Source: an uncultured Clostridium sp.
Lineage (GTDB): Bacteria; Bacillota; Clostridia; Lachnospirales; Lachnospiraceae
DNA length: 64,000 nucleotides
Assembly (NCBI GenBank): GCA_945915475.1
Contig: CAMEFI010000001.1
Coordinates: forward strand, 1 to 64,000
Reading direction: 5' to 3'
The position numbers and the translations under genes were made by a program. The notes under the pieces were generated by a model. It did not search any database, was not told where the DNA came from, and saw only the letters and a list, made by a program, of their open reading frames with translations. This document shows positions 9,163 to 25,468 of this stretch, piece after piece; the first letter of the stretch is position 1, and each line of letters begins with the position of its first letter.

Positions 9163-10074
9163 TCATCCCTTAAAATCAAAGTTTTGTCCAACTTTCTTTT
9201 CTTCCTCTGTCATAACTGATTTTGTGGAATTATCATAAGCGTATTTTGAAACCTGGCTAATCAAATCTTCCATGGAATCTGCTTTAATTTCAATATACTC
9301 CTTATCGTCAGATTCACGAATCGTATTATCCTCTTTATCCCGATTATTTTTAAGTTCTTTTTGTTTCGCTCTTTGTTCTTCACGAGATTTTTCTAATCTT
9401 TCTTCTTTGGCTTTCTTCTCCGCCTGCTTCTTTTCCTTTACTTTTGCGGCTTTCTTTTCTGCCTGCTTCTTCTCTAATCTCTTAGCCTGTTCCGCCGATG
9501 ATTTCTCTAAGGTAGCAAAAAAGCTGGTGGAACCATCCGAATTTACAGACATACCAAAGTTTTTCACACTTGCTCCACTACTTGCCAGGCTGTTCTTTGC
9601 ATTAGCAAGCTGAATCTCACTCATGGCAATAATTCCCTCATATTTCTTTCGATAAGACTCATCATTCGCCATTTGTTCCAGTTTTGCATCATCAATTAAC
9701 ACAACCTGTTTCTTGGCATTCCCGTAAGACGCCGCATTGGCATGAACCTGTGATTTCATATCCTGACTGACAGCAATAAACTCCATATTATGAAACTTCG
9801 CTTTTAATTTGTCATAATATTCTTTTGCCTTATCCGATAACTGCACATCACCAATTGCTATCCCAACTCCATCTTTATAAGAGGGAATAAGCGGGCTGCC
9901 GGATGGAACCGGACTCCAGGTGGATTTTTTAATATCCTTATCTGTTTTTGAAGCAGCCTCACTAGAAGTATTAGAAGCAGATGAATTCTTAGCCACTTCT
10001 TCATTTTTCTTTGTAGATTGTTTCCATGTTTGATTCGTCTGCTGATATGCAGATACTCCGTATACATTTGACAT
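9163..10074 (-). CDS. Unnamed Lachnospiraceae-type protein with a charged Lys/Glu-rich helix (303 aa)
   Basis: Not recognised with confidence beyond being a Clostridia-type protein of unknown function. It has no signal peptide or membrane segment. It starts MSNVYGVSAYQQTNQTWK, has a low-complexity Ser/Asn/Lys stretch (about 20-50), a folded middle part (about 60-190), and then a long highly charged coiled-coil-like segment (about 195-260) with repeated EKKQAEKKAAK-type units. The start is supported by AAGGAGGTAATCAT. It is the third gene of a run with 10745-11389 and 10121-10726. The N-terminal Tyr-Gly and absence of a Sec signal are shared with two neighbours. Confidence 0.8.
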   Translation of the reverse strand: MSNVYGVSAYQQTNQTWKQSTKKNEEVAKNSSASNTSSEAASKTDKDIKKSTWSPVPSGSPLIPSYKDGVGIAIGDVQLSDKAKEYYDKLKAKFHNMEFIAVSQDMKSQVHANAASYGNAKKQVVLIDDAKLEQMANDESYRKKYEGIIAMSEIQLANAKNSLASSGASVKNFGMSVNSDGSTSFFATLEKSSAEQAKRLEKKQAEKKAAKVKEKKQAEKKAKEERLEKSREEQRAKQKELKNNRDKEDNTIRESDDKEYIEIKADSMEDLISQVSKYAYDNSTKSVMTEEEKKVGQNFDFKG

Positions 10075-10120
10075 ATGATTACCTCCTTGTACTTTTTATA
10101 GAACTCCATTTCTATCTTAT

Positions 10121-10726
10121 TTACTCCGTACCTTCCGTTGATGCTCCCACAGATGCCATTGTATCCTCTACTGAAACAATCTCCGGACCATTGGCAAATA
10201 CTTCTTGTCCGTCTGCGGTTTCCATAGCGTCCTCTCTTTCTCTCTTCTCCTCATCCTCCCAAAGGGAATCATGTTTTTCTCTGTCCTTGTTACGCATCCT
10301 GGCTACCATTTGTGCACTCTTAGCCATCTGATACATATCTCTGTCGTACTCCATAACCTTCTTTTCATCGCTGCCAGGAACGGTATCCCCATGGGTCATT
10401 CGTCTCACAACTTCCATGATTTTACGCAAATCCTCAAAGCCTTCCTTTTCCGCTTCCGCATTTTCCCTTGTTGCAACCTCATTAAACTTAGCATCCCACT
10501 GTTCCATCAGCCGGTCCATATAATCCTGGTATTCATTCTGTTTCTCAGCAACTGCGTTATAAGTTAATTCAAGGGTTGCCGCTTCATTTGCAAAAACCAC
10601 CGCACCATTTTCTGTTGTCTTCATCCGCTCAGCTAAATCTGCTTTTTGCTTTGCAAGCTTGCATTTCTGAATATTATATGATCTTAACTGCGTACTATAA
10701 GCTTGACGAGCTTCTCCTACCGTCAT
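10121..10726 (-). CDS. Unnamed coiled-coil protein (201 aa)
   Basis: Family not recognised. A soluble, mostly helical and strongly charged protein without signal peptide; predicted helices at about residues 15-90 and 95-150 look like coiled coils. The N-terminus is MTVGEARQAYSTQLRSYNIQ. The start has AAGGAGGGATTGTT upstream and lies 18 bp after the stop of 10745-11389, so the two are co-transcribed. The repeated spacing and shared context with neighbours suggest a common function, perhaps a chaperone or structural partner. That is inference only. Confidence 0.78.
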   Translation of the reverse strand: MTVGEARQAYSTQLRSYNIQKCKLAKQKADLAERMKTTENGAVVFANEAATLELTYNAVAEKQNEYQDYMDRLMEQWDAKFNEVATRENAEAEKEGFEDLRKIMEVVRRMTHGDTVPGSDEKKVMEYDRDMYQMAKSAQMVARMRNKDREKHDSLWEDEEKREREDAMETADGQEVFANGPEIVSVEDTMASVGASTEGTE

Positions 10727-10744
10727 AACAATCCCTCCTTACAT

Positions 10745-11389
10745 TCAAGGTTTGCTCAATTTCCTAATTACAGAATCCCCTTCCTTTGACACATTGGATT
10801 CGCTGCCATAAGCATTAGCGGCCTTCAACAGATTCTCACGCTCCGACCCGAACCGTCTTTCCACGAAATCCCGGAATTCATTTTGTAAAATCGATAACTC
10901 TTCTTCCTTTGAAATCTGTCTATAACCATTCTCTGCCGTTTTCTCTTCCACAAAACGGATTCTCGTACCTTCATCGTATCCGGATACAATCTCATCATAT
11001 AATGATTTATATGTATTCAATATACTCTCTGCTTTTTCCTCCTCACTACGCTTTACATATACATATTCTCCATTTTCGCCCTTTTCATAGTTGGAAGGCA
11101 TGGCATTAGAAAAAACATTGGAAAAGCTTTCAACCGGCTGATGGTTTAACATAAACTCCTTTCTTGTTTGAACTTCTACCAAATTCTCGCTTCCGGCTAA
11201 CCTACTGCCATGCAAAGCCCTCAATCCATCTTCAGAAATGCTGACCTTTACTTCCGGCATGTTTTCTCCATACCCTGTATCCTTTAACATTTTCGGTTGA
11301 GGATCCTGTGTTTTTGCCTGCTCAAACAAATTGATTGTAGGCGCATGATAACTTTTTCCATTTATATTTCCATAGAAATTAACCGCCAT
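10745..11389 (-). CDS. Unnamed soluble protein, first gene of a three- or four-gene run (214 aa)
   Basis: Family not recognised. It starts MAVNFYGNINGKSYHAPTIN, contains a segment VSISEDGLRALHGSRL like those found in other Clostridia proteins of unknown function, and a charged helical C-terminal half (about 110-200). There is no signal peptide. The ATG follows GGAGGGATTGAA. A small hairpin (CTAACAT / ATGTTAG) lies just upstream of the ribosome site at about 11414-11429. It heads the run to 10121-10726 and 9163-10074. Confidence 0.78.
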   Translation of the reverse strand: MAVNFYGNINGKSYHAPTINLFEQAKTQDPQPKMLKDTGYGENMPEVKVSISEDGLRALHGSRLAGSENLVEVQTRKEFMLNHQPVESFSNVFSNAMPSNYEKGENGEYVYVKRSEEEKAESILNTYKSLYDEIVSGYDEGTRIRFVEEKTAENGYRQISKEEELSILQNEFRDFVERRFGSERENLLKAANAYGSESNVSKEGDSVIRKLSKP

Positions 11390-11738
11390 TTCAATCCCTC
11401 CTGTCCCTTATGCCTAACATCCATGTTAGACTTTTTACTATATTTGGATCAAATACTTCATATTATTAAATATTCTTTTTAACAAAAAGTGGGGAATTCC
11501 AGATAAATCTGTAAGAAATGAAATAGAATAACCATATTATAAACACAAAAAAGACATAGCAGACCTATATCTTAAAAACATCTCACTCCTTGAGAACTAC
11601 GATCCGAAATCCTTTTCTTCTTATAAAATATTATATTTATGCCTTTCTAAGTTATGTATCGGCAAGGATTCAGTAATCCTTTAGATACATTTCATATTTT
11701 TTAGAGAATATGATACCAGATTCTTCTATTAACCTATG
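11390..11738 (-). other. Gene-free stretch: promoter region of the 11389 gene and a hairpin after the 12239 gene
   Basis: No gene is seen in these 349 bp. An imperfect hairpin at 11654-11690 (ATGTATC...AAGGATT / AATCCTT...GATACAT) lies about 50 bp after the stop of the 11739-12239 gene and may end its transcript, although no T run follows. A weak, degenerate match to the LytTR operator pattern (two 9-bp half-sites 12 bp apart) can be placed at 11488-11517, at the same distance from the ATG as the good sites upstream of neighbouring genes. It matches poorly and may be chance. Confidence 0.4.
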
Positions 11739-12239
11739 TCACATCAGCGTTGACATGGCAAATGCATTTTTATCAGCAGCATTATCTTCCTCTCCTGAAG
11801 CTGATACCTCACTCAATCTCTGTTGCGCCTTTGCAATCATTGCTTTTACTTTATTCACTTCGTTTTCATCACACATACCGCTTTCTAATCCTGCCTGACA
11901 ATCCGCTAAGTCCGTTTGCAAAATACTCATTACCGTTTGAACATTTTTAGGCGTTTTAGCCGCTGCAAGCTGGCGGGCACGTTTTCCTTCATTAAAAGCG
12001 ACAGCGCCTCCATGAGTTTCTGTAGTCGTATTTGCTTGAGCCGTTTGCGTTTCTTGTGATAACTCTAAGACAACAGAACCATCTTCGGATTGGTAGATTG
12101 TCTTTTTCTCTGCTTTCATTTGTTCTGGATATTGTTCTGATAATTCATCCAATGAACCATTAGAACTCGCATTCACCTTTTCTTTTGCATATTCCATGGC
12201 TGCTTCTGACACCCAGCTATTTCCAACTTTAACCGCCAT
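11739..12239 (-). CDS. Unnamed protein controlled by a LytTR-type operator (166 aa)
   Basis: Family not recognised with confidence. It begins MAVKVGNSWVSEAAMEYAKE, has a beta-type patch YQSEDGSVVLELSQ (about 50-63), and ends in a helical segment ARQLAAAKTPKNVQTVMSIL...EVNKVKAMIAKAQQRL, which looks like a helical bundle. There is no signal peptide. The start follows AAGGAGGATGAGATT. A LytTR-type double repeat lies 104 bp upstream (12343-12372), so the adjacent AgrC/LytTR pair probably controls it. Confidence 0.8.
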   Translation of the reverse strand: MAVKVGNSWVSEAAMEYAKEKVNASSNGSLDELSEQYPEQMKAEKKTIYQSEDGSVVLELSQETQTAQANTTTETHGGAVAFNEGKRARQLAAAKTPKNVQTVMSILQTDLADCQAGLESGMCDENEVNKVKAMIAKAQQRLSEVSASGEEDNAADKNAFAMSTLM

Positions 12240-12342
12240 AATCTCATCCTCCTTGAAATAAAACGAAATTCCATTTATTCCTATCCCAGTATAAATAGGC
12301 TATTTATATTATCGCGCTATATTTAATAGAATTGAACCGAAT

Positions 12343-12372
12343 TGTTGTGAATGAGACTTTTTTCGGTGTAAA
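12343..12372 (-). promoter_or_regulatory. LytTR-type operator upstream of the 11739-12239 gene
   Basis: On the minus strand two 9-bp half-sites, TTTACACCG and TTCACAACA, are separated by exactly 12 bp. The second half-site and the following AATTCGGTT are nearly identical to the operator before the 12450-13178 gene. LytTR proteins such as AgrA bind paired 9-bp repeats with 12-13 bp spacing. Confidence 0.7.
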
Positions 12373-12380
12373 GAAATAGA

Positions 12381-12406
12381 AAGAAGCAGCAAAATGCTAC
12401 TTCTTC
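12381..12406 (-). terminator. Terminator-like hairpin after the FliD-like gene
   Basis: AAGAAGCAGCA (12381-12391) pairs with TGCTACTTCTT (12395-12405) with one wobble and a 3-nt loop. On the minus strand it is followed by a T-rich stretch. It separates the 12450-13178 gene from the promoter of the next gene. Confidence 0.55.
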
Positions 12407-12449
12407 CATGCTATCTCTTTTCACTTAATACATCTTTGTTTGGACAAGC

Positions 12450-13178
12450 CTAGAAAAATCCATCATACAAAGAACCACTATTGTAATTATTGTATAACGA
12501 ACCGTTATTCCCATACAGACTTCCATTTACCTGGCTCATCTGATTAGAAGCCTGGAAGGCGATCCTCGATGCAGAGGAAGAAATGCTACCTGCAAAAGAA
12601 CCGTTTCCATTAAATAATGACTTTACACGGCTCATATCTGCATTCTTGAACTTTTCTTCATCAATAGACATCTTACTGTCCGAACCAACAGTAATACCAA
12701 TCTTCGACAAACTGTTACTCATAATACCCGTCATACGCGTCATACGATTGCCTGCATTCTTTACTGATGTATTCGAAACAGACCCCATAGCACCTACAGT
12801 ATCATTATATTCATCTATAAAACTACTTACAGCTTTATAGATTGCATCTTTGTCATACTGATTCTTATCTGCAAACAGACTCCCTTTTCCAGTAGTCGTC
12901 AGCTTCTTTGCAGAATCCACAAGTTCATTTGCCTCGGATTTTACGGTTGATAAAGCTACATTTGCAACATTTCCCTTATCCTTAAGGTTTGTTGTCTGCT
13001 GTGTCTGGGTCGTCTTATTTGGTGCAACCTTCTTATAATATGCTTTCAAAGCCTTTGAATAGGCTCCTGTTCTAATGCTTCCATACTCTGAAAGATTGCT
13101 GTAAAAAGATGACATTCCAGACATCCTTCCCGCACTAAACATGCTGCTATAATTGGAAAATCCATAGATTCCAGCCAT
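12450..13178 (-). CDS. FliD (flagellar cap)-like C-terminal domain protein (242 aa)
   Basis: The middle and C-terminal parts resemble the FliD_C region: SSFIDEYNDTVGAM (about 115-130), LSKIGITVGSDSKMSIDEEKF (about 160-180) and ADMSRVKSLFNGNGS (about 182-196) match the family pattern of Y-N-D, then G-I-T and D-E-x-K-F, then V-x-x-L-F. The full cap protein is about twice as long; the N-terminal FliD half is missing and replaced by a Ser/Tyr/Met-rich start AGIYGFSNYSSMFS. The C-terminus is a Gly/Asn/Ser/Tyr repeat with several SLY units. No other flagellar gene is in the window. Of two ATGs, 13178 is 6 nt after AGGAGG and is preferred over 13181. A LytTR-type operator lies upstream. Confidence 0.72.
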   Translation of the reverse strand: MAGIYGFSNYSSMFSAGRMSGMSSFYSNLSEYGSIRTGAYSKALKAYYKKVAPNKTTQTQQTTNLKDKGNVANVALSTVKSEANELVDSAKKLTTTGKGSLFADKNQYDKDAIYKAVSSFIDEYNDTVGAMGSVSNTSVKNAGNRMTRMTGIMSNSLSKIGITVGSDSKMSIDEEKFKNADMSRVKSLFNGNGSFAGSISSSASRIAFQASNQMSQVNGSLYGNNGSLYNNYNSGSLYDGFF

Positions 13179-13311
13179 CATACCCCTCCTTTCGATTTTA
13201 TTTTACTCCAAAGCCTGCCGGTTCAAAGACCAGCAAGCTTTAGATATGAAGTGTAGTACATACAACCTCTATATCAAGTTTCGTATTATCTCTCAAAAAA
13301 ATCAACCAAAT

Positions 13312-13341
13312 TGTTGTGAACAGACCTTTTATGGTTGTGAA
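13312..13341 (-). promoter_or_regulatory. LytTR-type operator upstream of the FliD-like gene
   Basis: Minus-strand half-sites TTCACAACC and TTCACAACA are separated by exactly 12 bp (ATAAAAGGTCTG). The site overlaps the last codons and stop of the AgrC-like kinase gene (13329), so the promoter of the FliD-like gene is embedded in the end of the kinase gene. A candidate -10 (GATAATAC) follows about 21 bp downstream. Confidence 0.72.
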
Positions 13342-14699
13342 GGAAACACCACGCTGATCAAAACCTGGTTTCTCTTCTGTTCGAATACAACATCACCACC
13401 ATATTGTTTCACCACCCTGGTAATATTATGTAAACCCATTCCATGGCCTGCCCCTTTTGATGATACCGGCAATCCTGTGTCTGTGTTCAGTTCCAGATTT
13501 CCTGTAAATGCATTTGAGACACTTAGAATATAAATGTCCTTCACCTGTTCAGAGGCTACGCAAATCCAGGGTTTCTCCCCATTTACAGCCTCCAAACAAT
13601 TGTCCAATAGATTACTTAAAATGATACTCATATCAAAAACATCTATGTTGTTTTGAGAAGGATAATGATAATTACAAGAAAACTCTATCTTTCTGCTTTC
13701 TGCGTCTCTCATTTTCTCCTGTAAAATGATATCAGTCACGGGATTTCCAGTCTTTATCACAGGTGTAATACTTTGTTGCTGCTCTTTTAATCTGGCTAAA
13801 TATTCAACAGCGTCTTTATTTTTTTCATCACTAATCAAATGCTCCATAATCTGAATATGATTTCCCATATCATGACGCAGGCTTTGTGCTTCCTTATATA
13901 ATAGTTCCACCTGTTCCAAGTGTTTTTTCATCTGTTGAATTTGCGTTGCAAGTACATCTGTCTGGTGCCGTTCATTCTGATCATCCTTCATTTTCTGATA
14001 GGTTACAACCATAATCAGCTGCATGACATAGGCAGTCAGATAAAATAAAAAACGATATCCGTCTGCCGGAATATTCTCCTTAATACTTCCATTGGAAATC
14101 CCCTCACTAAACAAATTAAAATACTTCGAGACAATGTTACTTACAAACATAATAGCAAGCTGTGGGATACACAGAAATATCAGCTCATTTCTCGTCAAAT
14201 CCTCATATTTATTACGATAAGTTTTATGAAATAATCGAATTCCAAAATAAAACAGGAAAGAAAATAACAGTACATATAAGATTTTATCAATTGTAATATA
14301 TATCACATCCGCTAACACACTTTGCTGCAATATCTTTGTCACAACCGGCAAATCCCTGGTATAAAAACTCAGCTCTGCCATGATCCCAGCCACCAGAAAA
14401 CGCATAACATAAAAGCAAATACATAAATACACCTTTTGTTTTACATTCTGTCGTTCAAAAGCAGACATAAGAAAGCAGGTCAGAATCATGATGGTTCCAT
14501 ATGTAATTCTTGCACTAAAATTTTCCGAATACGCATAGCTTACCATAGAAATGATTGTAAACAGACTATTTGTAATATATTTTATTTTTTTATTCTTAAG
14601 AAATGGTGCGAAAAAGACATGAAAATTAACAGCCGTTGCAAATAGAACAAAATAATTAGTAATCTCACCAAGTACTTTCATATAAAAAATTATATCCAT
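13329..14699 (-). CDS. AgrC-like sensor histidine kinase (456 aa)
   Basis: Six or so hydrophobic helices occupy residues 10-235, then a helical linker (MKKHLEQVELLYKEAQSL), a phospho-acceptor region LRHDMGNHIQIMEHLI (H276) and a GHKL-type ATPase domain (N box LSNLLDNCLEAV, then GHGMGLHNITRVVKQYGG). This is the AgrC/ComD-like 10HPK class, usually a receptor for a secreted cyclic peptide. No agrB or agrD gene is visible nearby. It lies 3 bp after the LytTR regulator gene, so both are on one transcript. The signal and whether it is self-made are unknown. Confidence 0.88.
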   Translation of the reverse strand: MDIIFYMKVLGEITNYFVLFATAVNFHVFFAPFLKNKKIKYITNSLFTIISMVSYAYSENFSARITYGTIMILTCFLMSAFERQNVKQKVYLCICFYVMRFLVAGIMAELSFYTRDLPVVTKILQQSVLADVIYITIDKILYVLLFSFLFYFGIRLFHKTYRNKYEDLTRNELIFLCIPQLAIMFVSNIVSKYFNLFSEGISNGSIKENIPADGYRFLFYLTAYVMQLIMVVTYQKMKDDQNERHQTDVLATQIQQMKKHLEQVELLYKEAQSLRHDMGNHIQIMEHLISDEKNKDAVEYLARLKEQQQSITPVIKTGNPVTDIILQEKMRDAESRKIEFSCNYHYPSQNNIDVFDMSIILSNLLDNCLEAVNGEKPWICVASEQVKDIYILSVSNAFTGNLELNTDTGLPVSSKGAGHGMGLHNITRVVKQYGGDVVFEQKRNQVLISVVFPSQP

Positions 14700-14702
14700 T
14701 CC

Positions 14703-15419
14703 CTAATCCTCATTTTTTCTATGGTAATGTAAAAACGCCTTCACAAATTCTGAATAATTCGACTTGGAAAGCAGCACTTCCTTATCCTTCATATAAACCT
14801 TGCCAGCCTCGTAGCTTGTCACATATTTTAAATTTACCAGATATGCCCGATGCGTCCGAAAGAATGTATTCCCGGATATTGTCTCAAGCTCCTTCAACTT
14901 TCCGTAATATTCAATTTGTTCGTTTTTTAAATGTAAAATAATATTTCGATTAAATACCTCTGCATAGATAATATCATTTAATAGGATCTTTCTAGTAATT
15001 CCCTTAGTCTTAACTATTATATATGATTCTTCATGAAAACCACTATTTTTTCCCGCTGCCCTTTTATTTACCTGTGCAATTGCATTTTTCAATACTTTCT
15101 CAAACTTCAAATCATCTATCGGTTTCACCAGATAATGAAATGCTCCTACATCAAAGGCATCAAACACATACTCTTCCAGTGCTGTCACAAAAATAAGAAT
15201 ACTTTTTTCGTTTTTTATTCGAAATTCTTTTGCAGTCTCCATTCCATTTTCACCCGGCATCTGTATATCTAACAATAATATATCTGGATTATAATCACTT
15301 AAAAGAAGCTCTCTTCCTGAAGCAAATTGCTCAATGTCCATATTCAGAGACATTTGTTCTATTTTCTTATTCAACATTTGTCGTATTGATTGCTCATCAT
15401 CACAAATAGCGATTCGCAT
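14703..15419 (-). CDS. LytTR-family response regulator, AgrA-like (238 aa)
   Basis: A receiver domain (about 1-125) has the acidic pair in MRIAICDDEQ, phospho-acceptor D51 in DILLLDIQMPGENGM and Lys in YLVKPID. A LytTR DNA-binding domain (about 135-235) contains SYIIVKTKGITRKILLNDI, FFRTHRAYLVNLKYV and the end VLLSKSNYSEFVKAF. The frame is open from 15440, but AAAGGATG lies correctly for the ATG at 15419. It probably autoregulates through the operator at 15487-15516 and controls the FliD-like and 11739-12239 genes. Confidence 0.9.
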   Translation of the reverse strand: MRIAICDDEQSIRQMLNKKIEQMSLNMDIEQFASGRELLLSDYNPDILLLDIQMPGENGMETAKEFRIKNEKSILIFVTALEEYVFDAFDVGAFHYLVKPIDDLKFEKVLKNAIAQVNKRAAGKNSGFHEESYIIVKTKGITRKILLNDIIYAEVFNRNIILHLKNEQIEYYGKLKELETISGNTFFRTHRAYLVNLKYVTSYEAGKVYMKDKEVLLSKSNYSEFVKAFLHYHRKNED

Positions 15420-15486
15420 AGTTTCACATCCTTTGCACATAGATATACTAATTATATCGGAAAGATGAAATCAACATCCTATATAT

Positions 15487-15516
15487 TGTTGTGAAACAAC
15501 TATTTTTTGTTGTGAA
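15487..15516 (-). promoter_or_regulatory. LytTR-type operator upstream of the LytTR/AgrC operon
   Basis: Two perfect TTCACAACA half-sites on the minus strand are separated by exactly 12 bp. This is the best copy of the three in the cluster. A TATAAT box follows 30 bp downstream (GATATAATTAG) before the start at 15419. It supports positive autoregulation of the two-component system. Confidence 0.75.
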
Positions 15517-21682: not shown

Positions 21683-24600
21683 TTACTTTATTTTACCTTT
21701 AAAGCCTGCCTTCTCTAACTGCTTCTTGTAATCCTTCTTGCAGCTCTTTGGCACTTTGATTGTTACCTTCTTGCTAAGCTTCTTAACACCTGCCTTAGCA
21801 AATGCGTTCTTTGCAAGCTTTGTTGACTTAATTGTAATTGTCTTAACTGCCTTACAATCCTTGAATGCATTCTTACCGATTGATGTAACATTCGCACCAA
21901 TTGTAATCTTTGTTGCCTTCTTGCAGCCTGCAAATGCTTTTGCAGATACAGAAGTGACTTTATATGTGATTCCATCTACCGTAACACTATTTGGAATTGT
22001 TACTGCCTTTGCTTTTTTGTTGATAACTGCAGTATACTCTACCGTTGGATTCCCTTCCTGGTCAGAGGTTACCGTAACACTTGCATTTGCAACGACTCCC
22101 TTTAATACTGTTCCAACTGCTGCCGGTGTTGTACCAACTGGCGTTGTGGTATCTGTTTTTGTACCATTACCTGTATTCCCACCGGATGGATTGTTTATTT
22201 CCGGATTGTCATTCCCACCGGATGGATTGTTTGTTCCCGGATTGTCATTTCCGCCGGATGGATTGTCCATTCCTGGATTGTCATTTCCGCCGGATGGACC
22301 ATCATCTTTTGGTGACGAAACATCAAATCCATTCTCCTTTGCCCACTTTGCAGCGACTGAATCAGCACTTGCATAGATTACAAAATCATCTTCATTACCA
22401 TCAATTGCATATTCTCCAAAATTGACTACGCTATCAGGAATTGTAATACTAGTTAAGCCCTTGCAATTAGAAAATGCACAATCCCCAATACTTATTACTC
22501 CATCTGGAATGGCAATACTTCTTAGATTCATACATCCACTAAATGCACACGCTCCTATACTCTTAACATTATTTGGAATAATAGAATTCTTGCATCCTAA
22601 CACAAGTTCCGAATTATCTTTTCTGATAATACAATTCTGCTCACTATAATATACTTCATTTTCTTCCGCAACTTCTACACCTGTTAAGCCCATGCACCCA
22701 TCAAATGCAGCTTTATTAATATTTGTTACAGAAGCCGGAATCATAATATTCGTTAAGCCACTACATCCAGAAAATGCAGCTTCTCCAATACTTGTTACAG
22801 TACTTGGTATGGTTATACCAGTTAACCCAGCACAACATGAGAATGTGTCTTTCGCAATTGTTTTTAATCCCTCAGGAAGCGTAATACTTTCTAACCTGTC
22901 ACAACCAGAGAATGCAGCTTCCCCAATATTTGTCATACTAGCCGGCAGAGAGACACTTTCCAAACTGCAACAAGAATTAAATGTATTTTTTTCAATATTG
23001 GTTACTCCATTCGGAATCACAATACTGGTTAAACTTTCGCAGTCACTGAACGCCCCTTCACCAATACTTGTTACACCATCCGGAATCGTGATGGTTTCTA
23101 TATTGTCACATACAGCAAATGCATAGTCCCCTATACTGGTTAAATTGGATGAACTTGAAATATTAACATACGAAAGTGAAATACATTCACTAAATGCATA
23201 TTCCCCAATACTTGTTACACTATCCGGAATGCTAATACTTGTTAAATAGTATTCACATTCTGTAAATGCACGACGTCCAATACTTGTTACTGTCTTACCA
23301 TCAATCATTGCAGGAACCTCTATTTCTTCCTGTTCACTGAAACATGCATCAATTCGAATAGTTCCATCATCTAACACCGTATATTCATAGGTACCATCCC
23401 CGTCTTCATAAGTTTGGGACAAACTCATTAAATCGTAATCATTTTTCTTTGCCCATTCTGCAGCATAGGAACCCGGCACCGCATGGATACAGGTTACAAT
23501 TCTATCTCCATCATCATTTATATAATTGTAACCAATCGTACCTTGTCCAATGCTGATCACACTAGAAGGGATTGAAATATTACTCAAACTACTATCATCA
23601 AAGGAATAATCTCCAATATACGCTACTCCATTTGGAATTACAAAATCATAGTTGAAATGACATCCCCTAAATGCGTGTTTCCCAATACTCTTTACTCCTG
23701 TTGGAATTACTGATTTTTTACAACCTGCAATCAATTCTCCCTCTTTCGATATGAGACAATTTCCGGAACTATAGTAGTATTCATTTCCTTCTGCAACAGT
23801 TATCCCTACTAAATTTGAAAGACCTACTAAGGCACCATACTCTATATTTGTTACACTAGATGGAATTGTAATATTCTGTATATTACAACCACTAAATGTA
23901 AATTTTCGAATACTTGTGACTGCCTTATTATCAATCGATGCCGGAATCTCTAAATTTTTTTCTGTTCCCCCATAACCAATGATTTCTACCGTACCATCAC
24001 TTAGAATTTGATACTGATATTTGTTTCCACCTTCCTCAAATTCCCTACCCTCATTTATTGTCTCTACTTTATATCCTTTCTTCTCTGCCCACATTACAGC
24101 ATAAGAACCTGGTGCTGCATGAACAATCAAATTTTCGTTTACACCATAGAATGCATCTTCATCACCCTCATCAATGGATGTTACACTTCTTGGAATTGTA
24201 ACACTTGTTAAACTACTACAGTACAAAAATGTATTATATTTTATCTTTGTAACACTATTTGAAATTACAACACTTGTTAATCCACTACATCTTTCAAATG
24301 CACCTCTTCCAATCTCTGTTACACTCTCTGGAATTACAATACTTGTTAATCCACTACACCAGCTAAATGCATCGTCTCCAATCTTTGTTACACTCTCTGG
24401 AATTATGATACTTGTCAGATTTATGCAGTATTCAAACGCACCTCTTCCAATCTCTGTTACACTCTCTGGGATTACAACATCCCCTGTTGCATTACTTCCG
24501 TCAATCAATAAATTATTAACAATAACCAACCCATCATTTGAATTTTTTTTCATATTTTCAAGCCATGCTGTTCCAGAAAAGGCATTGCCTTCCACAGTCA

Positions 24601-25468
24601 CTACACTAGCCGGAATTGTAATACTTTTCAAATTACTGCAGCCTGCAAATACAGATGCCCTAATTCTCGTAATCCCTTCCGGTATTGTAATACTTGTCAG
24701 ATTACTACAGTCTGCAAATGCAGCTATTCCAATCTCTGTTACTTTCTCTGGAATTGTAATGCTTGTAAGATTACTACAACCCAAAAATGCATCGGCTTCA
24801 ATACTTATGACTTCTTTAGGAATATCAGATGTTTTACATCCCAGAATCAATTTATTATCTTTCGTCATAATGCAATTTCCTGCACTATAATACTTTTCAT
24901 TTCCATCCTCAACAAGAATCTCGCTTAAATTGCTACAACGAGAAAATGCATTGGTCTCAATCTCTATTACGCTCTCTGGTATTGTGATACTTGTCAATCC
25001 ACTACAGCCATAAAATGCACATGACTCAATATACTTTACTCCTTTTTGAATTGTAATATTTGTCAAATTACTGCAGTCTGCAAATACAGATTCCTTAATT
25101 CTCGTAACCCCTTCCGGAATTGTAATACTTGTCAATCCGCTACAGCCCTTAAATGCATAATAGCCGATATCCGTTACTCCCTCCGGAATCGTAACACTTG
25201 TCAAACTACTATAATCATAAAACGCCTCTCTATCAATGGACGTTACCTTATATCCAGCAACCTCTTCCGGGATTACCAATTCCGTATCACTCCCAGTATA
25301 ACCACTAATCGCTGCACACTTTCCATTTTCATTTTCCCACGTATAATACTTATACCCATCAGCCGTCTCCGCTGCCTTGCTCGTTACTGACACCAATGCC
25401 ACACCAAGCAGTATGAACATACAATATGCCAGCAACATACCTATTCGTTTCTTCTTTTTACTCTTCAT
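21683..25468 (-). CDS. Large secreted BspA-type leucine-rich-repeat protein (1261 aa)
   Basis: A Sec signal peptide (about 1-32, KKKKRIGMLLAYCMFILLG...) is followed by a short domain (YKYYTWENENGKCAAISGY) and then many LRR_5/BspA repeats of about 23 residues with the consensus F-x-x-C-x-x-L-T-S-I-x-I-P-x-x-V-x-x-I-G-x-x-A. Repeats run from about 45 to 1020 in three blocks, each starting with a degenerate unit with Y-x-Y-x-x-L-x-D-G-T. A Pro/Ser/Gly/Asn linker with four PSGGN units follows (about 1050-1100). A final repeat block (about 1130-1261) ends with basic KAGFKGKIK. There is no LPXTG sorting motif. Proteins of this type bind host or bacterial surfaces. AGGAGGAATAGAGG precedes the ATG. 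Confidence 0.92.
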   Translation of the reverse strand: MKSKKKKRIGMLLAYCMFILLGVALVSVTSKAAETADGYKYYTWENENGKCAAISGYTGSDTELVIPEEVAGYKVTSIDREAFYDYSSLTSVTIPEGVTDIGYYAFKGCSGLTSITIPEGVTRIKESVFADCSNLTNITIQKGVKYIESCAFYGCSGLTSITIPESVIEIETNAFSRCSNLSEILVEDGNEKYYSAGNCIMTKDNKLILGCKTSDIPKEVISIEADAFLGCSNLTSITIPEKVTEIGIAAFADCSNLTSITIPEGITRIRASVFAGCSNLKSITIPASVVTVEGNAFSGTAWLENMKKNSNDGLVIVNNLLIDGSNATGDVVIPESVTEIGRGAFEYCINLTSIIIPESVTKIGDDAFSWCSGLTSIVIPESVTEIGRGAFERCSGLTSVVISNSVTKIKYNTFLYCSSLTSVTIPRSVTSIDEGDEDAFYGVNENLIVHAAPGSYAVMWAEKKGYKVETINEGREFEEGGNKYQYQILSDGTVEIIGYGGTEKNLEIPASIDNKAVTSIRKFTFSGCNIQNITIPSSVTNIEYGALVGLSNLVGITVAEGNEYYYSSGNCLISKEGELIAGCKKSVIPTGVKSIGKHAFRGCHFNYDFVIPNGVAYIGDYSFDDSSLSNISIPSSVISIGQGTIGYNYINDDGDRIVTCIHAVPGSYAAEWAKKNDYDLMSLSQTYEDGDGTYEYTVLDDGTIRIDACFSEQEEIEVPAMIDGKTVTSIGRRAFTECEYYLTSISIPDSVTSIGEYAFSECISLSYVNISSSSNLTSIGDYAFAVCDNIETITIPDGVTSIGEGAFSDCESLTSIVIPNGVTNIEKNTFNSCCSLESVSLPASMTNIGEAAFSGCDRLESITLPEGLKTIAKDTFSCCAGLTGITIPSTVTSIGEAAFSGCSGLTNIMIPASVTNINKAAFDGCMGLTGVEVAEENEVYYSEQNCIIRKDNSELVLGCKNSIIPNNVKSIGACAFSGCMNLRSIAIPDGVISIGDCAFSNCKGLTSITIPDSVVNFGEYAIDGNEDDFVIYASADSVAAKWAKENGFDVSSPKDDGPSGGNDNPGMDNPSGGNDNPGTNNPSGGNDNPEINNPSGGNTGNGTKTDTTTPVGTTPAAVGTVLKGVVANASVTVTSDQEGNPTVEYTAVINKKAKAVTIPNSVTVDGITYKVTSVSAKAFAGCKKATKITIGANVTSIGKNAFKDCKAVKTITIKSTKLAKNAFAKAGVKKLSKKVTIKVPKSCKKDYKKQLEKAGFKGKIK

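Follow-up and report, generated by a model that had tools for sequence, protein, structure and literature searches.

Which regulator acts at a set of closely matching direct repeats, which sigma factor reads the promoters behind them, and what are the products for? These questions are raised by a locus in 64,000 nucleotides of DNA from an uncultured Clostridium sp. of the Lachnospiraceae (GenBank assembly GCA_945915475.1, contig CAMEFI010000001.1, positions 1 to 64,000 of the forward strand; hereafter the window), in which pairs of 9-bp repeats stand ahead of an operon for a LytTR response regulator and a sensor kinase, ahead of a gene for a FliD-like protein, and ahead of a gene for a protein of 166 amino acids (aa). 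An earlier note on this DNA had taken the repeats for the operators of a LytTR regulon. That reading is supported in part, and it is widened here: the note had missed a sigma28-type -10 element at near-fixed spacing from the operators, as well as a tie to flagellated genomes. The locus is a real regulon with strong comparative support, and its joining of LytTR two-component control to sigma28-type promoters is a new variant.

Operators and promoter elements in the window

All three operators are genuine and lie, like the other features of the window described below, on the minus strand. Operator 1 (15487..15516), upstream of the regulator-kinase operon, is a direct repeat TTCACAACA-N12-TTCACAACA with 0 mismatches. 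Operator 2 (13312..13341), upstream of the FliD-like gene, departs from this pattern by 1 mismatch, and operator 3 (12343..12372), upstream of the gene for the 166-aa protein, by 3, its promoter-distal half TTTACACCG being weak and degenerate. The spacer between the 9-mers is exactly 12 bp in all three, so that the positions and the geometry described in the earlier note are borne out; the chance expectation of such sites in the window is a mean of 0.17, and three were reached in 0 of 100 dinucleotide shuffles. The note had also seen one operator embedded in the 3' end of the kinase gene. The overlap is real, but only 13 of the 30 bp of operator 2 fall within the kinase open reading frame (ORF; 13329-14699), and the operator straddles the stop codon. 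Position-weight scores of the window operators (30.2, 39.0 and 40.9, with a best score of 10.4 in ten dinucleotide shuffles of the window) are descriptive, because all three sites belonged to the training set of the matrix.

Each operator is followed by a sigma28-like -10 element. Behind operator 1 this is CCGATATAAT (15451..15460), in which CCGATAT overlaps a sigmaA-like TATAAT and CGATA starts 28 nt past the operator. Behind operator 2 it is ACGAAA (13279..13284), with CGAAA starting 29 nt past the operator, and behind operator 3 it is GCGATAA (12309..12315), the first base of which is neither C nor A and the CGATA of which again starts at 29 nt.

The genome-wide search that the earlier note had proposed, in which the same repeats at many unrelated loci would have counted against a regulon, favoured the regulon when this element was included and spoke against the bare half-site pattern at 3 mismatches. 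With the half-site pattern alone, at up to 3 mismatches, there were 27 matches in the whole genome versus 13 for the reversed pattern; chance matches therefore dominate, and the pattern is not specific. At up to 1 mismatch, two of the three window sites were recovered and no others genome-wide. The pattern TTCACNACA-N27..29-CGAWA gave three matches in the 3.09-Mb genome, all of them the window sites, and 0 in the reversed control; it was written after the three sites had been seen, and its informative part is the absence of other matches. As far as that pattern and a 97.9% complete assembly can show, the regulon in this genome consists of three promoters. One further site with 2 mismatches (G000:C48:14110, G000 being the genome of the window) was left out of the counts, as it lies 21 bp from a contig end and any -10 would fall outside the sequence.

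Choice of sigma factor

The position of the -10 element hardly varies. In this and related loci, CGAWA starts 28-30 nt past the operator in 67 of 78 sites, and at exactly 29 nt in 44. In a second promoter set, from which duplicate promoters were removed, it stands at 27-30 nt in 55 of 63 regulator promoters and in 50 of 52 kinase-distal promoters, where the background rate is 0.0019 per position. The position-weight matrix did not include the -10 element.

Judged by their letters, the operator-linked -10s appear to be of the sigma28/FliA type and would be read by sigma28. In the related Butyrivibrio fibrisolvens, sigma28 promoters are given as -35 TAAA and -10 MCGATAa in PMC3720852, and one flagellin promoter of the present genome reads TAAA-N16-CCGATATATAG, with a -10 like the operator-linked ones. 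The promoters here carry the CCGATA-type -10 and, with few exceptions, are without a TAAA -35 at suitable spacing.

An ordinary LytTR regulon could instead use sigmaA promoters with poor spacing, as at AgrA targets, with the flagellar link being one of gene content only. The regulator promoters read CCGATATAAT, with CGATA in 55 of 55 aligned and a perfect TATAAT in 26 of 55, so sigmaA alone could serve there. In addition, the tabulated LytTR -10s lie about 31-33 nt past the repeat, as worked out from the tables of PMC6193735, where the present ones lie at about 30-31 nt, and in the AgrA promoters set out in PMC4227749 the -35 and the -10 are separated by 18 and 20 nt, which is suboptimal. The kinase-distal promoters speak against this reading, as they carry CCGAAA (39/50) or CCGATA (11/50), never TATAAT (0/50), with the position of the element unchanged. 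With the Butyrivibrio and flagellin promoters just mentioned, and with the confinement of regulator homologues to flhA-positive genomes described below, we regard the use of sigmaA throughout as rather unlikely, and favour sigma28.

Operators in related genomes

The locus survey covered the best 80 of at least 463 regulator relatives, all in named genomes and 76 of them with a recognised kinase; these loci partly overlap the unnamed loci and the training loci of the matrix, and the overlap was kept. A repeat stands upstream of the regulator in 65 of the 80 (57 with CGAWA), while 55 of the 76 have one past the kinase (53 with CGAWA), and 47 loci have both sites. Where at least 250 bp were available behind the kinase, 52 of 73 loci have the repeat, the other three sites being in shorter loci. 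Roseburia faecis M72 and R. inulinivorans DSM 16841 (L213, L215) are among the operator-bearing loci. This linkage of the operators to a regulator subfamily in many genomes supports the earlier claim of a LytTR regulon that takes in the regulator's own operon along with a FliD-like gene and one further gene.

A refined 30-bp pattern, TTCACAACANAAAAAGGNCNGTTCACAACA, to which only one of the three window sites conforms, was searched for in 397 family genomes at up to 3 mismatches; 16 of them contained 24 sites in total (reversed control 0). Several genomes have pairs of sites 2.2-2.3 kb apart, a distance explained by the regulator-kinase operon between them. In 82 sequences (1.22 Mb), a weight-matrix scan found 88 matches at a score of at least 10 versus 3 in reversed sequence. 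Half-sites at up to 2 mismatches matched in 39 of 60 relatives; most matches were scattered, and the clustered ones were followed.

The adjacent regulator, which the earlier note had named as the likely binder, is probably just that. Of the 76 homologue places from a search at E <= 1e-45, 55 were taken into a tree together with one from G020, making 56 regulators. In this tree a branch with 98/95 support parts 39 rows, 35 of which have site and -10 in the locus, from 17, of which 3 do. Half-sites within a locus are also slightly more alike than shuffled ones (0.787 versus 0.764; 64 of 5000 shuffles as high, 29 non-redundant loci).

The repeats might nevertheless be bound by another regulator, for example a global flagellar one, with the adjacent LytTR protein as just one of its targets, since LytTR binding is read from sequence and the within-locus co-divergence is slight. 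The half-site TTCACAACA and its variants are, moreover, unlike the commonly tabulated LytTR repeat ACCNCTTAN; the repeats in the tables of PMC6193735 are mostly of that form but variable, so it is not a strict requirement. Against another binder, 9-12-9 direct repeats just ahead of the -35 region are typical of the LytTR regulators tabulated there, the sites flank the regulator operon and are concentrated on one side of the regulator tree, and no operator was found at the flagellin and FliD loci scanned in the window's own genome. We therefore consider another binder improbable, and retain the adjacent LytTR regulator.

As a separate observation, the regulator-kinase operon is present twice in one genome (G269; L139, L140), in near-alike copies that lie on separate contigs and have an operator on either side.

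Association with flagella

The genome of the window has FliA (over the curated cut-off), flagellins and FlhA, and a 668-aa open frame at G000:C3:126160 matches FliD_C end to end. Among the 397 family genomes, FlhA is present in 211 and a regulator homologue (E <= 1e-45) in 55. All 55 of the latter have flhA, as against 156 of the 342 others (p 1.8e-17, uncorrected for shared ancestry; listings were compared by eye and then tested). FlhA likewise occurs in 15 of the 16 genomes bearing refined-pattern sites. The exception, G133 (L145), was treated as a chance match, as its site lacks CGAWA and FlhA was not listed for its genome. In the 60-relative set, the 27 genomes with a FliD-like match (E <= 0.001) are all FlhA-positive and 0 of 10 FlhA-negative genomes has one (p 0.0013); two of the 27, G051 and G053, match weakly and may hold FliD proper.

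Regulator, kinase and signal

The regulator (14703..15440) combines a receiver domain (PF00072, E 1.4e-18) with a LytTR domain (PF04397, E 2.3e-17), both above cut-off, and, its presumed targets being preceded by 9-bp direct repeats with a 12-bp spacing, has the features of a LytTR response regulator. Judging from the sequence, its true start is likely at 15419 (MRIAICDDE, with AAAGGA upstream). Asp58, which we take to be the phospho-acceptor, is invariant in 19 sequences. Its partner (13329..14699) is a GHKL sensor histidine kinase of the AgrC-like class (PF14501, E 9.9e-22) with a hydrophobic N-terminal half, the hydropathy segments of which lie between residues 16 and 192.

AgrB is absent among nine neighbouring ORFs; the four AgrB matches in the genome are all on other contigs. 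Nor was AgrB found in 3 of 15 system-bearing genomes (G029, G150, G397), and a peptide made by AgrB is therefore not a general requirement. Membership in an Agr quorum-sensing locus was rejected, as no AgrB stands near the AgrC/AgrA-like pair (AgrD was not searched for). Membership among the LytTR regulatory systems (LRS) was rejected as well, given that the regulator has a receiver and its partner is a GHKL kinase rather than a membrane inhibitor.

Output proteins

The earlier note had called the output of the system undescribed. This is now answered in part: the output genes encode proteins of the FlxA, FliD-D1 and DUF6033 types. The commonest is FlxA-like, with a gene that directly follows the kinase in 37 of 76 loci and is among the next five in 48; FliD-D1-like and DUF6033-like proteins occur alongside it. 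A structural model of an FlxA-like protein consists of long helices with disordered tails. In Escherichia coli, flxA is FliA-dependent, as described in PMC4183435.

In the window, the FliD-like protein (12450..13181; 243 aa; PF07195, E 4.2e-9) has no cysteine and no membrane segment, and 13 of 15 homologues match PF07195. Its structural model is confident only at residues 108-214, which form one compact part predicted by structure comparison to resemble the FliD D1 domain; the low-confidence N-terminus is probably disordered. With this model, Foldseek found nothing at E <= 0.001, and when solved structures were searched by profile, FliD came up only at E 0.43.

The 166-aa protein (11739..12239) matches, at both termini, a 401-aa protein from a genome of the same genus (L070), the central part being absent. 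In 6 of 76 relatives the gene next after the kinase encodes a protein that matches the C-terminal part of the 166-aa protein, and one of these, the L139 copy, has a DUF6033 match. The 166-aa protein thus resembles the longer one minus its centre, and its conserved C-terminus ends in a FAM..LM-like motif.

FlxA-like and FliD-like proteins have no membrane segments and are depleted of cysteine: 46 of 58 and 13 of 18, respectively, are cysteine-free, versus 12 of 504 for the remaining genes of the loci. These properties, together with flhA co-occurrence, point indirectly to export; the FlxA-, FliD- and DUF6033-like outputs would probably leave the cell through the flagellar type III apparatus.

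Proposed mechanism

We infer that the kinase would sense a signal and then phosphorylate the regulator. A dimer of the regulator would bind the 9-12-9 repeat, close ahead of a promoter that has a sigma28 -10 and no recognisable TAAA -35, and there recruit or activate RNA polymerase. At operator 1, this would give positive autoregulation of the regulator-kinase operon, where a -10 readable both by sigma28 (CCGATAT) and by sigmaA (TATAAT) could permit a basal level. The remaining operators would drive output genes that need sigma28, so that output would require a flagellum at the sigma28 stage as well as the signal. The account we consider fairly likely is that of a positively autoregulated LytTR two-component system by which one branch of the late flagellar regulon, perhaps one serving flagellar-exported proteins, is placed under the additional control of a signal. 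We also advance, tentatively, a broader possibility: a widespread and apparently undescribed Lachnospiraceae branch in which LytTR replaces the sigma28 -35 and an AND gate (flagellum complete plus signal) releases cysteine-poor FlxA and mini-FliD proteins through flagellar export into the gut.

The operators might instead mediate repression, with which sequence alone is compatible. Their position ahead of the -35 and the missing TAAA -35 fit an activator, and a like layout gives positive feedback in the characterised LytTR systems of PMC6193735; repression thus seems very improbable to us, and activation is the reading we keep.

Several observations weigh against a sigma28-dependent regulon of exported proteins. 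At the sequence level, the sigma28 reading is weakest in the near-absence of the canonical TAAA -35, present in 3 of 55 regulator promoters and 2 of 50 kinase-distal ones, although this would be expected if the regulator stands in for the -35. TTTA lies 17 nt ahead of the -10 in 24 of 50 kinase-distal promoters, a strict TAAA + CCGAWA scan found a flagellin promoter at only 1 of six flagellin loci scanned, and the perfect TATAAT of many regulator promoters would suit sigmaA. No site was found upstream of the regulator in 15 of the 80 loci; of the 73 loci whose sequence runs on for at least 250 bp past the kinase, 21 have none in that stretch. On the regulator tree the site label needs 8 changes rather than one, the co-divergence of half-sites is slight, and spacers do not co-diverge (991 of 5000 shuffles as high in the 29 non-redundant loci). 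The flhA association, besides its lack of an ancestry correction, includes the site-poor side of that tree among its 55 genomes. Finally, cysteine depletion does not extend to the other genes downstream of the kinase (5 of 108 cysteine-free) or to the 166-aa-like proteins (0 of 6), the window copy of which has 2 cysteines.

Flagellar sigma28 promoters are usually taken to need no activator. If the proposal is true, gut commensals would have one branch of their flagellar regulon tied to an external signal, and FlxA-, DUF6033- and FliD-like proteins of unknown function would gain a regulatory context and an export hypothesis.

Neighbouring features

Next to the regulon lies a run of genes (9163-11389) for a DUF6033 protein and two unnamed proteins, with 0-1 cysteines each, whose co-expression with the operator-bearing units the earlier note had proposed to test. 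A sigma28-like promoter, TAAA-N17-CCGATA (11657..11683), stands 273 bp ahead of ORF 10745-11389 and has no operator. Control of the run by the LytTR regulator is therefore unlikely, and the run probably belongs to the general late flagellar regulon. In another genome (G010, L063), orthologues of the DUF6033 protein (74%) and of a 201-aa protein (71%) adjoin a FliD-like gene, without an operator. Elsewhere in the window, positions 21683-25468 encode a 1261-aa protein whose translation shows, by eye, repeat units like bacterial leucine-rich surface repeats.

Comparison with known systems

No comparable LytTR-sigma28 system was found in the open-access literature, among the matches listed, and no papers were found there on DUF6033 or FlxA-like proteins. 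The matches for LytTR, sigma28 and flagellar terms concerned Laribacter, those with SigD for sigma28 concerned Clostridioides difficile, and those for a sigma28-dependent response regulator with a direct repeat include Chlamydia GrgA, an activator that also serves sigma28.

The half-site of AgrA differs from the half-site here, and LRS regulators are without a receiver domain. Systems of the AgrC-AgrA type otherwise share with the present one a GHKL kinase, a receiver-LytTR regulator and direct repeats just upstream of the promoter, as laid out for the promoters in PMC4227749, and differ from it in that here AgrB is missing from the neighbourhood and the targets have a sigma28-type -10. The LRS (HdrRM/BrsRM), as tabulated in PMC6193735, are alike in having autoregulatory repeats, mostly 9-12-9 and usually about 10 bp ahead of the -35. 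They are unlike the present system in their membrane inhibitor, in place of which a receiver domain and a histidine kinase are found here, and in the mostly TATAAT-like -10s of the promoters in those tables. The C. difficile direct-repeat regulator RR_1586 was dropped as a parallel, being of the OmpR type in the account of PMC6222199.

On the flagellar side, the FliD cap is approached by the window protein in its FliD_C match and its predicted D1-like fold, and the two part at the D2-D3 head, for which 243 aa leave no room. The flagellar co-expressed determinants (Feds) of Campylobacter, for which the relevant text of PMC5223770 describes sigma28-dependent production and secretion, offer a likeness in logic only, no sequences having been compared; that text mentions no LytTR control, and export here is putative. 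The late sigma28 regulon that includes E. coli flxA, as outlined in PMC4183435, shares with the present system a FliA-type -10 and an FlxA-family target, the system here being confined to flhA-positive genomes. What sets the present system apart from that regulon is a two-component operator instead of the TAAA -35, held at near-constant distance from a sigma28-type -10 in many genomes, Roseburia included.

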